The position numbers and the translations under genes were made by a program. This document shows positions 26,396 to 31,295 of a stretch of DNA of 64,000 bases, piece after piece. The notes beneath the pieces were generated by a model. The model was given only the letters and a program-made list of their open reading frames with translations. It had not been told where the DNA came from and ran no database searches. How positions within the stretch are numbered: the first letter of the stretch is position 1; the number at the start of each line of letters is the position of its first letter. The stretch is taken from contig CALMMX010000078.1 in the NCBI GenBank assembly GCA_937868545.1, forward strand, positions 1 through 64,000, given 5' to 3'. Origin of the DNA: an uncultured Bacteroidota bacterium. GTDB taxonomy: Bacteria > Bacteroidota > Bacteroidia > B-17B0 > Aurantibacillaceae.

Positions 26396-27385
26396 TTACA
26401 AAGATAACCAACCTTTTGCAGCATCTCCCATTATTGTTTTTTTATCTGTTTCAGATAAGGGTGATGTGCGCACTAAATCTCCTGGTACTGCTTCACCTAA
26501 AGGAAACGGGTAATCAGAACCTTGTACTACTTTATCTGCACCCACTAAATCTATAACATATTGTAACATTTTATGATCACACACATGAGAATCTACCCAA
26601 AACTTTCCTAAATATTTTTTTGGATTAAACTCATTATCAATAGCAACTAAATCTGGACGACAATCCCAGCCGTGTTCAATGCGGCTAATAGTAGGTAAAA
26701 ACGAACCACCACCATGTGCAAAACACACTTTAAGTTTGGGGAATTTTTCAAAAATCCCACCAAAAATCATTGAACATATTGCACGACTAATTTCTGCTGG
26801 CATACCAACTAACCAAGGTAACCAGTATTTACTCATGTGCTCTTGCCCCATCATTTGCCAAGGATGCACTAATATAGCCGCGTTTGTTTTTTCACAAGCT
26901 GCCCAAAAATCGTAAAATCGAGGATCATCTAAATTTATGTTATTTACATTGCTTCCAATTTGTACACCTTTAAAACCAATATTCATACATCTTTCTAATT
27001 CTTGAACCGCAAGGGCTGTATCTTGCATTGGAACTGTAGCTAAGCCAATAAATTTATCGGGATAGGCCTTTACAGTATTTGCAATATCATCATTTAAAAA
27101 TTGTGAAATTTTTAAGCAATCATTTGGTTTTGCATCGTAATTAAACATTACAGGAATTGTACAAATAACTTGCATATCTGCTTTATGTTCAGCCATTTCT
27201 TTTATTCGCACTTCAGGATTCCAGCAATTTTCAACTATTTCTCTAAATCGCTTGTCACCTTGCATCATCCATGCTCTTCCTGGTTCATGATGATCTAATT
27301 GTATAAAATTTCCATAACCAAATTTTTTTGTAAAATCTGGAATGTGTTTAGGTATAATGTGTGTATGCGTATCTATTGTAAACAT
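26396..27385 (-). CDS. 2-amino-3-carboxymuconate-6-semialdehyde decarboxylase (ACMSD)
   Basis: This is an amidohydrolase-superfamily metalloenzyme of 329 residues. ACMSD diverts the kynurenine pathway intermediate ACMS away from quinolinate/NAD and towards complete oxidation. Metal ligands are visible in DTHTHIIP (H7, H9), ILVHPWQM, CFAHGGGSF and GSDYPFPLGE. Strong family landmarks are ENCWNPEVRI, IPVMFNYDAKP, YWLPWLVGMPAE, FEKFPKLKVCFAHGGG and NPKKYLGKFW, closely similar to what I recall of the animal enzyme. It is 6 bp downstream of the DUF885 gene. Kynureninase at 1.7 kb lies earlier in the same pathway. Confidence in the specific activity is good but rests on remembered motifs. Confidence 0.93.
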   Translation of the reverse strand: MFTIDTHTHIIPKHIPDFTKKFGYGNFIQLDHHEPGRAWMMQGDKRFREIVENCWNPEVRIKEMAEHKADMQVICTIPVMFNYDAKPNDCLKISQFLNDDIANTVKAYPDKFIGLATVPMQDTALAVQELERCMNIGFKGVQIGSNVNNINLDDPRFYDFWAACEKTNAAILVHPWQMMGQEHMSKYWLPWLVGMPAEISRAICSMIFGGIFEKFPKLKVCFAHGGGSFLPTISRIEHGWDCRPDLVAIDNEFNPKKYLGKFWVDSHVCDHKMLQYVIDLVGADKVVQGSDYPFPLGEAVPGDLVRTSPLSETDKKTIMGDAAKGWLSL

Positions 27386-27391
27386 AGTGTA

Positions 27392-29209
27392 TTAATTATT
27401 AGTTTTTAATTCTGCAGCTGTCATCAACTCCTTAATGTATTTAACTGGTGCACTGCCGTAACTTAAAAATTTTTCGTGGAATTGTTTTAAGTTAAATTTA
27501 TCTCCTTGTTGTTGTTTTAATTCTTCTCTAAAATCATAAATTTCTTTGAAGCCAGTAAAATAAGAACATAATTGAACTTGAGTTACTGAAACTCTTTTCC
27601 ATTTACCTTCTGCTTCCGCTTGTTGTTGAAAGGCCTCGTCTACAAGTAAATGTATGGCATCTTCTTTACTTAAATTATTTACATGAACCCCATAATCTAA
27701 AATGGTGTTGCATGTTGTACGTAAATTCCATTTATAATACATTAACCACATTTCATCTTCAGGTTCCCCTGAGCCTGTCGAAGGGTTGTTGCCATAACCG
27801 TTTTCTAACATCATACGTTCTGTATATACCGCCCAACCTTCTACCATTGCGCCATTTCCAAAAATTGATTTTATTAAACTAGGAGATTGATTTGAATAAA
27901 TGAGTTGAGTGTAATGACCAGGAATTGCTTCGTGTATATTTAATATTTGTAATATATAATGGTTGTATTCTTTTAAATAACTTTCAATACGGTCTTTTTC
28001 CCAACCAGAAAAACTACCAACATTATAATACGTGTTTCCGTTTTTATCATAAGGTCCAGGTGATGAAATGGACGCACCTGCTACACCTGCCATGTATGCT
28101 GGTTCTTTGCGCACAACAAGTGGTTTAGACGGATCTAAATAAATTAAATTTTTGTCTTTAATAAATTTTACTAATGTTGGAATTTGATGTTCTATTTCAA
28201 CCTGAAAGGAATCTGCATTAACATGTTTTTCAGAAATTTTATCAATCACCATTTTTGTTAGCAATAATTTGTCTGTTGGCTTTGGTGTAAAGCCTTTTTT
28301 ACCAACTGTTAGTTTTTCTTTTTCTGTATAATACTTATCCCATAATTTATCTGCTAGTTCAAACATTTTTTTGTGAAGTTCAATTTTATGTTCAACCGCT
28401 TTTTTATAAATATCGTGTGCTGTGTAACTAGATTGAATATCATTTTCAAATTTTTTAGCATAAAGGTCTTTGCCAATTCTAAAACTTCGAGGTGTTTCAT
28501 TTTTTAAGTTTTTAAGAAAACCGACGTAGTCTTTAATTGCTGCCACTGCTTCTTTGGCACTAATCATAAACGCATCACGTATTTCTTTACTTGGATTATC
28601 TTTGTTTAATGCATTTACAAGGTCTTCTTCAAAAACAGAAATGCCCCCTAAATTTTGGTCAATTGCAAGTTGAGTATGTTCTATTGTTGGGTTTTTAATA
28701 TTTTGTTTTGCTGCTTCGTAAAATGATTTAACATGTTGCATTTTTAAATAAAAATTATGCAAGCGCATTGGCAAAGTATCATAATTATTGTTTAGTATTT
28801 CGGCAAAGCTTCCACAAACATTGTAATCAGAGGGGTTCCATTCGTATGATTTAAACTCATTGCTATACCATTGTGTTGATTTTAACTGTGACTCAATCAT
28901 CTGGAAATCAATTTTGTTATTATCAGATAATGAACTTAAGTCAAATTGCTTTAATGAATCTAAATGTTGAGAACAAAAACTTAATTCTTGTTTTCTTGCA
29001 GCTTGGTTAGGAATAACTAGCATACTATCATAATTATGATAACCTACACTACTTGCCCAGCCTGGATATTGTTTCCAAAGTGATAAAACAAAACGTTCTT
29101 TATAAGCATCAAATTGTTTGTCTTGGTTATTAGTTTTTTCTGATGTTGTTTTATCTCCACCACATGAAGCAAATAGGGTAACGATAGCAATGATTAATAG
29201 GTTTTTCAT
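27392..29209 (-). CDS. DUF885 family lipoprotein, predicted zinc metallopeptidase
   Basis: The protein has 605 residues with lipobox LFASC (Cys16). The zinc site is NIHEAIPGHYTQ (H426, E427, H432) with the following Glu in MVEGWAVYTE (E457). The family is related to thermolysin-like/DUF885 carboxypeptidases, with mixed helical architecture across the full length. The end has the usual EDAIHLLVDEAFQQQAEAEGKW region. An unusual feature is the residues PSTGSGEP (476-483). They are encoded by a REP-like sequence at 27762-27787 and look like an in-frame insertion just after ENGYGNN. The gene follows urocanate hydratase by 52 bp and precedes ACMSD by 6 bp. A role in peptide supply to the amino-acid catabolic genes is an inference. 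Confidence 0.85.
   Translation of the reverse strand: MKNLLIIAIVTLFASCGGDKTTSEKTNNQDKQFDAYKERFVLSLWKQYPGWASSVGYHNYDSMLVIPNQAARKQELSFCSQHLDSLKQFDLSSLSDNNKIDFQMIESQLKSTQWYSNEFKSYEWNPSDYNVCGSFAEILNNNYDTLPMRLHNFYLKMQHVKSFYEAAKQNIKNPTIEHTQLAIDQNLGGISVFEEDLVNALNKDNPSKEIRDAFMISAKEAVAAIKDYVGFLKNLKNETPRSFRIGKDLYAKKFENDIQSSYTAHDIYKKAVEHKIELHKKMFELADKLWDKYYTEKEKLTVGKKGFTPKPTDKLLLTKMVIDKISEKHVNADSFQVEIEHQIPTLVKFIKDKNLIYLDPSKPLVVRKEPAYMAGVAGASISSPGPYDKNGNTYYNVGSFSGWEKDRIESYLKEYNHYILQILNIHEAIPGHYTQLIYSNQSPSLIKSIFGNGAMVEGWAVYTERMMLENGYGNNPSTGSGEPEDEMWLMYYKWNLRTTCNTILDYGVHVNNLSKEDAIHLLVDEAFQQQAEAEGKWKRVSVTQVQLCSYFTGFKEIYDFREELKQQQGDKFNLKQFHEKFLSYGSAPVKYIKELMTAAELKTNN
27762..27787 (-). repeat. REP-like element inside the DUF885 coding sequence
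   Basis: On the minus strand the core reads CCTTCGACAGGCTCAGGGG, with CCCT/AGGG ends inverted around an 11-nt centre. This matches a short palindromic repeat family I recall as dispersed in Flavobacteria and many other bacteria (CCTTCGACAxGCTCAGG). Here it is in frame and encodes NPSTGSGEP. I saw one copy in this window. Confidence 0.6.
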
Positions 29210-29261
29210 ATTATATATGTTTGTACTAATGTGTTTAAATGTAAAATAGGAATTGTTTAGT

Positions 29262-31295
29262 TTAAAATAAATTATTTAAAATAGATTCGTCAACCAAATT
29301 AGCAACAGTAACTTTTAAGTTTGGAGTGCGTTCCATTTCGCGTTTAATTGCAAAGTTAGCTTCTTTGTTTCTGGCCCAAGCTCGTCGTGCTATTCCATTA
29401 TTAACGTCCCAAAACAACATTGATTTTAATTTTCTATCGGCATCGGCACTACCATCTAATACTAAACCAAATCCTCCATTAATTACTTCGCCCCAACCAA
29501 CACCACCGCCATTGTGTAAGCTTATCCATGTTGCGCCTCTAAAACCATCACCTACAAAATTTTGTACAGCCATATCAGCCGTATATTTTGAGCCATCGTA
29601 AATGTTTGATGTTTCGCGGTACGGAGAATCAGTTCCACTTACATCATGATGATCTCTACCTAAAACAACAGGTGCTGAAATTTCTTTATTAGCAATAGCT
29701 TTATTAATTGCCTCAGCAATTTTCACCCTACCTTCGCTATCAGCATACAAAATACGTGCTTGAGAACCTACAACTAAATTGTTTTTCATAGCATCTCTTA
29801 TCCAAACTATGTTGTCATTTAATTGAGGTTTAATTTCTTGTGGAGCAGTTTTGTATATTTCTTCTAATACATGTAATGCTATTTCATCTGTTTTACGTAA
29901 GTCGTTTTCGTTAGCACTAGTGCAAACCCATCTAAAAGGCCCAAATCCATAATCAAAACACATTGGCCCTAAAATATCTTGTACATAACTATTGTATTTA
30001 AATGTTGCGCCTGTTATACCACCATATGTTGCAGCTTCGGTTTTATAAACATTTCCTCCAGCTCTTCCAACCTCTAATAAAAAGGCATTACCATAATCAA
30101 AGAAATACATACCTTGAGAGGTTAGGGTATTTACAGCATTTATATGTCTTACTAACGTATCTTGAACTAGTTCTTTAAATTTAGTGGGGTTTGAAGCCAT
30201 TAACTCGTTACTTTCTTCTAAAGAAATACCAACGGGGTAATAACCACCAGCCCAAGGGTTGTGCAATGAAGTTTGATCAGAGCCTATATCAACTTTTATT
30301 CCTTCTTTTACTATTCTTTCCCATAAATCAACTATATTTCCTTGGTAAGCAATTGATACAGCTTCTTTATTTTTTTGTGCCTCTTTTACGCGTGGTATAA
30401 GTAAATCTAAATTCTCAAATACTTCATCTACCCAACCTTGAGATTTTCTTGTATTTACAGCTTTAGGATTAATTTCAGCAGTTATTGAAACTAGGCCAGC
30501 AATTTTAGCAGCTTTTGGCTGAGCACCACTCATACCGCCTAAGCCACAGGTAACAAATAATTTCCCTATTCTATCCTCTTCTGATTTTGACACTTTGCGT
30601 GCTGCATTCATAACTGTAATACAAGTACCATGAACAATACCTTGTGGACCAATATACATGAATGAACCAGCTGTCATTTGTCCATATTGAGTAACACCTA
30701 GAGCATTAAATTTTTCCCAATCATCTGGCTTACTATAATTTGGAATCATCATTCCGTTTGTTACAACAACTCTTGGTGCATCTTTATGCGAAGGGAATAA
30801 ACCCATAGAATGGCCACTATATAAAACCAAGGTTTGCTCATCAGTCATTGTCGCTAAGTATTGCATAGCAAGTAAATACTGTGCCCAATTTTGAAAAACC
30901 GCCCCATTACCACCGTATGTAATTAGTTCATGAGGGTGCTGTGCAACAGCATAATCTAAATTATTACTAAGCATGTGCATGATTGCGGCTGCCTGTATGC
31001 TTTGATGTGGATAATCGTGAATAGGACGAGCATATATTTTATAATCTGGACGAAAACGATACATGTATATTCTACCATAGGTTTTTAATTCTTCAGCAAA
31101 TTCTTTTGCCAGAACAGCATGATGTTTAGCATCAAAATAACGAAGCGCATTTTGTATTGCTAATTTTTTTTCTTCTACATTTAAAATATCTTTTCGTTTT
31201 GGAGCATGATTAATAGAACTCTCAAAAGGTTTAATTGAAGGTAGTTCATTTGGAATACCATTTAATATGTGTTGTTGAAATTGTATAGTGTTCAT
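29262..31295 (-). CDS. hutU: Urocanate hydratase, long form
   Basis: This enzyme converts urocanate to 4-imidazolone-5-propionate in histidine breakdown, using NAD+ as a catalytic cofactor. The start chosen is ATG at 31295 (677 residues), because the longer frame begins at a TTG. Landmarks include YGGNGAVFQNWAQYLLAMQYLA, GAGSFMYIGPQGIVHGT-like GSFMYIGPQGIVHGT, CGLGGMSGAQPKAAKIAG and DQTSLHNPWAGGYYP. The C-terminal part has GRDHHDVSGTDSPYRETS and SLHNGGGVGWGEVINGGFG. The length resembles animal urocanase (about 676) rather than the 555-residue pseudomonad form. No hutH, hutI or hutG is in the window. It lies 36 bp after the response regulator at 31332. Confidence 0.95.
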   Translation of the reverse strand: MNTIQFQQHILNGIPNELPSIKPFESSINHAPKRKDILNVEEKKLAIQNALRYFDAKHHAVLAKEFAEELKTYGRIYMYRFRPDYKIYARPIHDYPHQSIQAAAIMHMLSNNLDYAVAQHPHELITYGGNGAVFQNWAQYLLAMQYLATMTDEQTLVLYSGHSMGLFPSHKDAPRVVVTNGMMIPNYSKPDDWEKFNALGVTQYGQMTAGSFMYIGPQGIVHGTCITVMNAARKVSKSEEDRIGKLFVTCGLGGMSGAQPKAAKIAGLVSITAEINPKAVNTRKSQGWVDEVFENLDLLIPRVKEAQKNKEAVSIAYQGNIVDLWERIVKEGIKVDIGSDQTSLHNPWAGGYYPVGISLEESNELMASNPTKFKELVQDTLVRHINAVNTLTSQGMYFFDYGNAFLLEVGRAGGNVYKTEAATYGGITGATFKYNSYVQDILGPMCFDYGFGPFRWVCTSANENDLRKTDEIALHVLEEIYKTAPQEIKPQLNDNIVWIRDAMKNNLVVGSQARILYADSEGRVKIAEAINKAIANKEISAPVVLGRDHHDVSGTDSPYRETSNIYDGSKYTADMAVQNFVGDGFRGATWISLHNGGGVGWGEVINGGFGLVLDGSADADRKLKSMLFWDVNNGIARRAWARNKEANFAIKREMERTPNLKVTVANLVDESILNNLF

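Follow-up and report, generated by a model that had tools for sequence, protein, structure and literature searches.

How did a DUF885 family protein come to carry eight residues that are missing from several related proteins and are encoded by DNA that recurs elsewhere in the same genome? We addressed this at one locus of the window, the whole 64,000-nt stretch of DNA analysed here. The answer we favour, and consider highly probable, is that the residues come from a mobile hairpin repeat (REP-like, short at about 21–24 nt), a copy of which landed in the DUF885 gene and was tolerated there. The features of the locus are as follows.

27392..29209, minus strand: host gene, DUF885 family protein of 605 aa (ORF and Pfam PF05960, residues 49–596)
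27914..27934, minus strand: HEAIPGH, residues 426–432, metal-binding type motif of the host, conserved in the alignment
27761..27784, minus strand: in-frame insert of 24 nt, PSTGSGEP (residues 476–483), delimited by gaps in homologues; exact edges ambiguous
27784..27785, minus strand: outer arm CC, pairing with the GG of 27767–27768 (pairing across copies)
27769..27783, minus strand: core CTTCGACAGGCTCAG, family A (other strand CTGAG-CCTGT-CGAAG), exact match
27767..27768, minus strand: outer arm GG (pairing across copies)
27762..27764, minus strand: ACC (GGT on the other strand), putative family A tag, two bases beyond its consensus place (+3 to +5)

The insert lies in a predicted loop of the host

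The host ORF belongs to the DUF885 family, matching PF05960 with 317.7 bits against a cut-off of 32.4 (3.7e-94), the only Pfam match at E ≤ 1e-10. An earlier note, made from the letters of this DNA, had placed the core in frame on the minus strand, coding PSTGSGEP at residues 476–483 after ENGYGNN and about 45 residues after the zinc motif. Exact matching and residue numbering agree with this: ENGYGNN occupies residues 469–475, directly before PSTGSGEP, and the insert begins at 476, downstream of HEAIPGH at 426–432, which we take to be a motif of the zinc-binding type. The string CCTTCGACAGGCTCAGG occurs exactly at 27768–27784 on the minus strand, its sole place in the window at up to three mismatches; 3 of 100 shuffled windows contained a match at that tolerance. 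Judged from its letters, the displaced ACC at 27762–27764 is likely the family A tag.

The same note had assigned the insert to a loop. In an AlphaFold model of the host (mean pLDDT 74.9, built on 17 sequences), the segment is predicted without secondary structure: residues 476–481 have pLDDT below 50 and no helix, and lie between helices 453–469 and 485–509. The model thus fits a flexible loop at the insert site; residues 362–429, including part of HEAIPGH, also have pLDDT below 50. An Rfam scan of window positions 27000–29500 gave nothing above threshold. A sub-threshold match to RT-17 within the DUF885 gene (27963–28056, minus strand; 23.8 bits against a cut-off of 40.4) is likely due to chance.

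Homologues with and without the insert

We searched 60 relatives and obtained 29 DUF885 matches (25 genomes and the window's own), aligned here as 20 near-full-length sequences, the window's included, and 9 partial ones. Opposite PSTGSGEP, a gap is found in L019, L021, L023, L026, L028 and other homologues, which read NN-xx-EMW; relative to these the window's gene has 24 extra nucleotides, bearing out the proposal of an insertion whose length is a multiple of three. Nine of the 20 genus genomes have the DUF885 gene. The suggested alignment with close relatives divides these nine sequences into four with the insert (G000, G016, G011 and G008, each with PST[G/S/D]SG and a further two residues, making 24 nt), four in which NN runs straight into xxEMW (G014, G012, G017 and G007) and one, G006, with a different filling. 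Among 80 named loci, an ST-x-S insert is present in three; two of these match the contigs of G011 and G008, and in the third, L209, the DUF885 loop contains a tandem pair of 24-nt copies, PSTGSRQANSTGSGQA. Several homologues from other genera have fillings of 6–8 residues without the DNA core (TGSEEASD, SGSNEASP, AGSAQASP), so the loop tolerates changes of length in general.

In a tree computed with the loop left out, presence of the insert requires at least four changes over 28 rows, a count that does not tell gain from loss. The grouping of the four insert-bearing genus sequences as one clade was rejected (p-AU 0.007), and a clade of L020, L022 and L024 alone was borderline (p-AU 0.048); the tree was known before both tests. 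The DUF885 loop therefore appears to have switched state on more than one occasion. Separate gains are favoured by the sequence after the core, which is GGGAACCT in the window copy and GACAAGCT in the other three insert-bearing genus copies.

DUF885 proteins close to those of Bacteroidota also turned up in records titled Candidatus Saccharibacteria and Bifidobacterium breve (L185, L244), which are perhaps mislabelled MAGs.

The core is a dispersed repeat with paired flanks

A second check proposed by the earlier note was a count of core copies in the genome. In the window's own genome (a MAG 83% complete in 384 contigs, analysed from the assembly without reads), the core occurs at 17 places at up to two mismatches and the reversed control pattern at none. 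Across the genus it is found at up to one mismatch in 18 of 20 genomes (129 places against 2 for the control, summed), and for the wider pattern CTTCG-N4-7-CTCAG the totals are 817 places and, in the control, 84 (20 genomes, summed). These near-identical copies, well above chance, qualify the core as a dispersed repeat. Its distribution across the class is patchy: 146 of 395 Bacteroidia genomes contain it exactly, and one of these, G381, has 204 copies. Viral contigs (IMG/VR, L442–L521) also hold exact copies, in at least 120 stretches and in some cases as inverted pairs; we draw no conclusion from this raw count, and host flanks may explain part of it.

From 185 contexts of all loops we distinguished three families that have the arms CTGAG and CGAAG in common and differ in loop and tag. 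Family A (61 copies) has the loop CYTGT and the tag YGGT, family B (17 copies) the loop GCTCT, and family C (36 copies) the loops CGGAGT, CGAAGT or CGTAGT and the tag TGTCA; B and C were sampled narrowly, mainly from loci of G006 and G003. On the tag strand, family A reads YGGT-NN-CTGAG-CYTGT-CGAAG-N'N', where NN and N'N' vary by copy and are mostly complementary. A CTGAG/CGAAG hairpin would comprise two Watson–Crick pairs, a tandem G.A and A.G, and then a G-C pair.

Pairing extends beyond the core. Over 126 distinct contexts at up to one mismatch, the flanks had on average 1.84 consecutive paired bases, compared with 0.45 in shuffles (largest 0.74); copies shared by descent are counted separately here and in the following figures, which therefore overstate independence. 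In the 61 exact family A copies, arm positions 1 and 2 were paired in 53/61 and 53/61 (shuffle means 19.8 and 15.5, maxima 33 and 26), and positions 3 and 4 in 18/61 and 20/61, near the shuffle means of 14.2 and 18.9. Both outer pairs are formed in 46/61 family A and 30/36 family C copies. Family A nevertheless has 12 different outer dinucleotides beside an identical 15-nt core. The three bases before the outer pair on the tag strand tend to GGT (G in 48, G in 33 and T in 32 of 61).

Across copies, then, the arms are complementary, as in an imperfect hairpin. Standard DNA folding was less uniform: a B-like copy and one family A copy folded better than most shuffles (z −2.31, with 5/200 shuffles as good, and z −1.67, with 12/200), whereas one family C copy (z 0.89) and the window copy itself (z −0.57) folded no better than shuffles, which leaves the stem proposed for the window without support from standard folding. 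The description of the element as REP-like and palindromic thus holds in that it is a repeat with flanks that pair across copies, but the palindrome is imperfect and the fold of the window copy is unexceptional.

Copies inside genes favour one reading frame

More than half of the exact family A copies (35/61) lie in ORFs of at least 200 aa, and 26/61 lie outside such ORFs. The core has five stop-free readings, of which [A/T/P/S]ST[G/S]S[A/V/G] is by far the commonest in long ORFs: 28 of the 35 copies are in this STGS frame (binomial against one in five, 4e-14, for copies that are not all independent) and 7/35 are in others. Family C behaves similarly, with 12/36 copies in ORFs of at least 200 aa and 8 of these 12 in the LSGVE frame (p 6e-4); for family B, 5/17 copies are in such ORFs. 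The frame preference is most simply explained if small polar residues disturb proteins least. At up to one mismatch, the STGS frame accounts for 44 coding contexts, and chance may explain some of these, such as L107 and L131 in Ser/Thr-rich repetitive proteins. The in-frame capture described for DUF885 is real, but it is not a lone case, as other genes hold copies in the same frame.

The hosts are diverse. Of 20 host proteins scanned with Pfam, the window's included, one had no match; the others include proteins that are, or look like, a class I tRNA synthetase (which we take to be ValRS by its motifs), MetRS, PheRS alpha, GcvP, PGK, TsaD, FtsZ, a DNA topoisomerase, an amidase, an AIR-synthase-related protein, a 2-oxoacid dehydrogenase E2, a DPP-IV type peptidase, an M1 peptidase, a SpoIIE phosphatase, an amidohydrolase, a PD40 protein and an HTH_40 protein. 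In GcvP, PheRS, FtsZ and the topoisomerase the insert position is common to two or more species; hence some insertions are old. Where two genes encode the same amino acid, codons were identical in 22/31 pair comparisons inside the insert and 1344/2590 outside, a weak difference from pooled pairs that are not independent.

Filled and empty sites in other conserved genes

In-frame insertions absent from homologues were found in unrelated conserved genes: DUF885, PGK, ValRS (at two sites) and GcvP. In PGK, the insert is present in G002 only, reading KDASTGSATSSNSKYSL; 15 of 17 genus rows are short, with a 7-residue linker (for example, KEGPTNK before YSL), and 1/17 was not parsed. At ValRS site 1, the 15 genus rows parsed comprise three with a family A element, one with another palindrome, two with other fillings and nine short. 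The other palindrome, in G008 (L259), is a fourth, C-rich one, CTCACCCCAGCCCTCTCCGAAGGAGAGGG, in frame as NGLTPALSEGEGSE; the filling in G002 contains GAGGCTCTCGAAG, possibly a family B element with a single change.

ValRS site 2 is the most varied. Among 15 genus rows parsed, five are short and the own-genome row falls in no class. Family A is present in G003 and, with one mismatch, in G016; family C is present in G008 and G011, with changed C-like DNA in G007, G001 and G014; and family B is present in G009 and, as an altered tandem pair, in G002. Three families thus use one ValRS loop in different species. Tandem-like copies were seen in the ValRS of G002 (L270) and the topoisomerase of G006 (L068).

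The net gain varies between genes: +7 residues in PGK (G002), +8 in DUF885, +5 to +6 at ValRS site 1 and +3 in GcvP. As it is not constant, flanks must be lost or edges vary, and the gain of merely three residues in GcvP indicates that an insertion can go with loss of neighbours. There, the nearest empty gene reads GCCGGTGCCGC and the filled gene GCGG-core-CCGCC.

Competing explanations for the insert

If a hairpin repeat landed in the gene for the DUF885 protein, the copy would have been retained owing to a length divisible by three and its position in a loop. An improbable alternative is that the ancestral loop was long and some lineages lost it, the likeness to a repeat being the remnant of one old, inherited insertion. 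The fillings of similar flavour in other genera speak for this, L020, L022 and L024 do have a common GACAAGCTTCC after the core, and the number of changes on the tree is compatible with losses as well as gains. Against it, those fillings lack the DNA core, the window copy differs from the other three in what follows the core, and the clade tests gave rejection for four sequences (p-AU 0.007) and a borderline result for three (p-AU 0.048). The PGK insert, confined to one genome, also argues against inheritance of an old insertion.

Slightly less probable still is that the motif is not mobile and instead marks a selected functional site, such as a peptide signal or a signal for DNA uptake or recombination. 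Retention of the exact core in hosts of different species would be expected of such a site, as would the somewhat higher codon identity inside the insert (22/31 against 1344/2590, not independent). Yet 26/61 exact copies lie outside ORFs of at least 200 aa, 7/35 are in frames other than STGS, the host proteins have unrelated functions, and the same ValRS loop accommodates two other families with different peptides. That a low-complexity STGSG loop merely happens to look like the repeat has a negligible probability. The motif is short, and some of the 44 coding contexts (L107, L131, one-mismatch copies) may be of this kind; for the window copy, however, chance similarity is refuted by the window shuffles and by the exact 15-mer, which has 17 places in the genome when the reversed control has none.

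Insertion of a mobile hairpin repeat therefore remains our preferred reading. Counting against it are the lack of a link to a transposase in the genus (below), the uneven net gain, the unexceptional fold of the window copy, statistics inflated by copies shared by descent, and the incomplete, fragmented assembly. The interpretation in the earlier note is supported and was largely right, both of its refutation tests having gone in its favour. We infer that the surviving copies have been filtered by purifying selection and are not kept for a function of the peptide.

The outer pairs themselves might be made at insertion and not copied from a master. This would explain identical cores with varied yet pairing dinucleotides. 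In one variant, the element would be inserted at the midpoint of a very short palindrome in the target (NN|N'N'); in another, one arm would be written by fold-back copying of the target. In one case, the empty and filled GcvP genes, the arms may pre-exist, and the report of REPs inside larger palindromic sequences in three organisms (PMC3733652) offers a precedent for insertion into a small palindrome. If true, and taken with the ValRS loop used by three families, certain protein loops would be standing landing pads. We regard the whole proposal, pairs made at insertion together with loops as landing pads, as speculative and rather unlikely.

Relation to known intragenic repeats

The element represents a new hairpin family of a kind already known, that of intragenic REPs and Rickettsia palindromic elements (RPE). 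Its letter strings were found in no paper of the open PMC literature, a search that strings printed in figures escape. According to PMC10969869 and PMC2229807, RPE are palindromes inserted in frame in unrelated conserved genes, and one RPE-bearing protein has been shown to be made and active. The likeness lies in palindromic repeats in frame in unrelated conserved genes. Compared by description, RPE as presented there are longer, at 105–150 bp, than the 21–24 nt (7–8 residues) seen here in Bacteroidota.

Di Nocera 2013 (PMC3733652) sets out GTAG and CGTC REPs together with intragenic units, including some in tRNA synthetase genes; in recB of two Xanthomonas species, different REPs occupy about one site. 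CGTC REPs, including TGTC variants, are described there from five phyla including Bacteroidetes, seemingly without a dedicated transposase. As in our families, these are short tagged hairpins that can be intragenic, tRNA synthetase genes included. By the definitions given there, our repeats are not GTAG REPs, having the tags YGGT (A) and TGTCA (C). A CGTC-type tag (CGTC/TGTC/CCTC) is present in family C and at most ends of the G381 dimers described below, and absent from family A of the window's genus. Nor does family A have the stem of 8–9 bp, loop of 4–5 and CCA tail given for CGTC REPs: it has 2 + 5 stem positions (two of them G.A/A.G), a loop of 5 and no conserved CCA tail that we could see. 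Relative to both classes as characterized there, its stem is shorter, with mismatches and variable outer pairs, and family C combines a TGTC tag with a 6-nt loop unlike that of CGTC REPs. What is unusual in our families is that the outer pairs vary yet match, and that several families occupy a single loop.

Palindromic repeats that code for protein within the central enzymes of one Bacteroidota genus broaden a phenomenon familiar chiefly from Rickettsia. Because filled and empty genes, several families and tandem copies occur together, one can measure how small in-frame insertions are gained, lost and tolerated, a question that a 2024 review (PMC10969869) calls unexplored for Rickettsia. The repeats also carry a warning: a short STGSA, LSGVE or PEALEG segment in such a protein may come from a repeat, in which case it is no conserved motif.

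Transposases and inverted dimers

Copies may move as single-stranded hairpins through an HUH-type transposase acting in trans, a possibility that we put forward tentatively. Y1_Tnp profiles gave 24 matches in 12 of 20 genus genomes. No core copy at up to two mismatches lay beside any of these 24 loci within the fetched flanks, some of which were ended by contig ends; two loci had a core match at three mismatches. Two genomes, G016 (93% complete) and G019 (76% complete), have core copies without any Y1_Tnp match. Within these flanks we found no tie to RAYT in the genus, that is, no copies beside a Y1/RAYT gene as in REP/REPIN systems. Open frames of 181–229 aa with weak Y1_Tnp matches, presumably RAYT-like in size, occur at L162–L165, L170–L172 and L177 and do not adjoin repeats.

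REPINs are REP doublets moved by RAYT transposases. The repeats of the window's genus depart from this in that most copies stand alone (close pairs, of whichever family, number 11 among the collected loci) and no RAYT tie was found there. In G381, by contrast, the same core forms inverted dimers that, by their arrangement, appear REPIN-like: 30 loci read of 204 places gave 15 distinct inverted dimers of 82–84 bp, along with some single copies. On the tag strand, their ends are mostly TGTCACC-CTGAGCYTGTCGAAG-GGC or GGC-like, and no ORF above 160 aa spans them. The G381 dimers (L412–L441) also have further inverted flanks, for example ttcgcg...cgcgaa.
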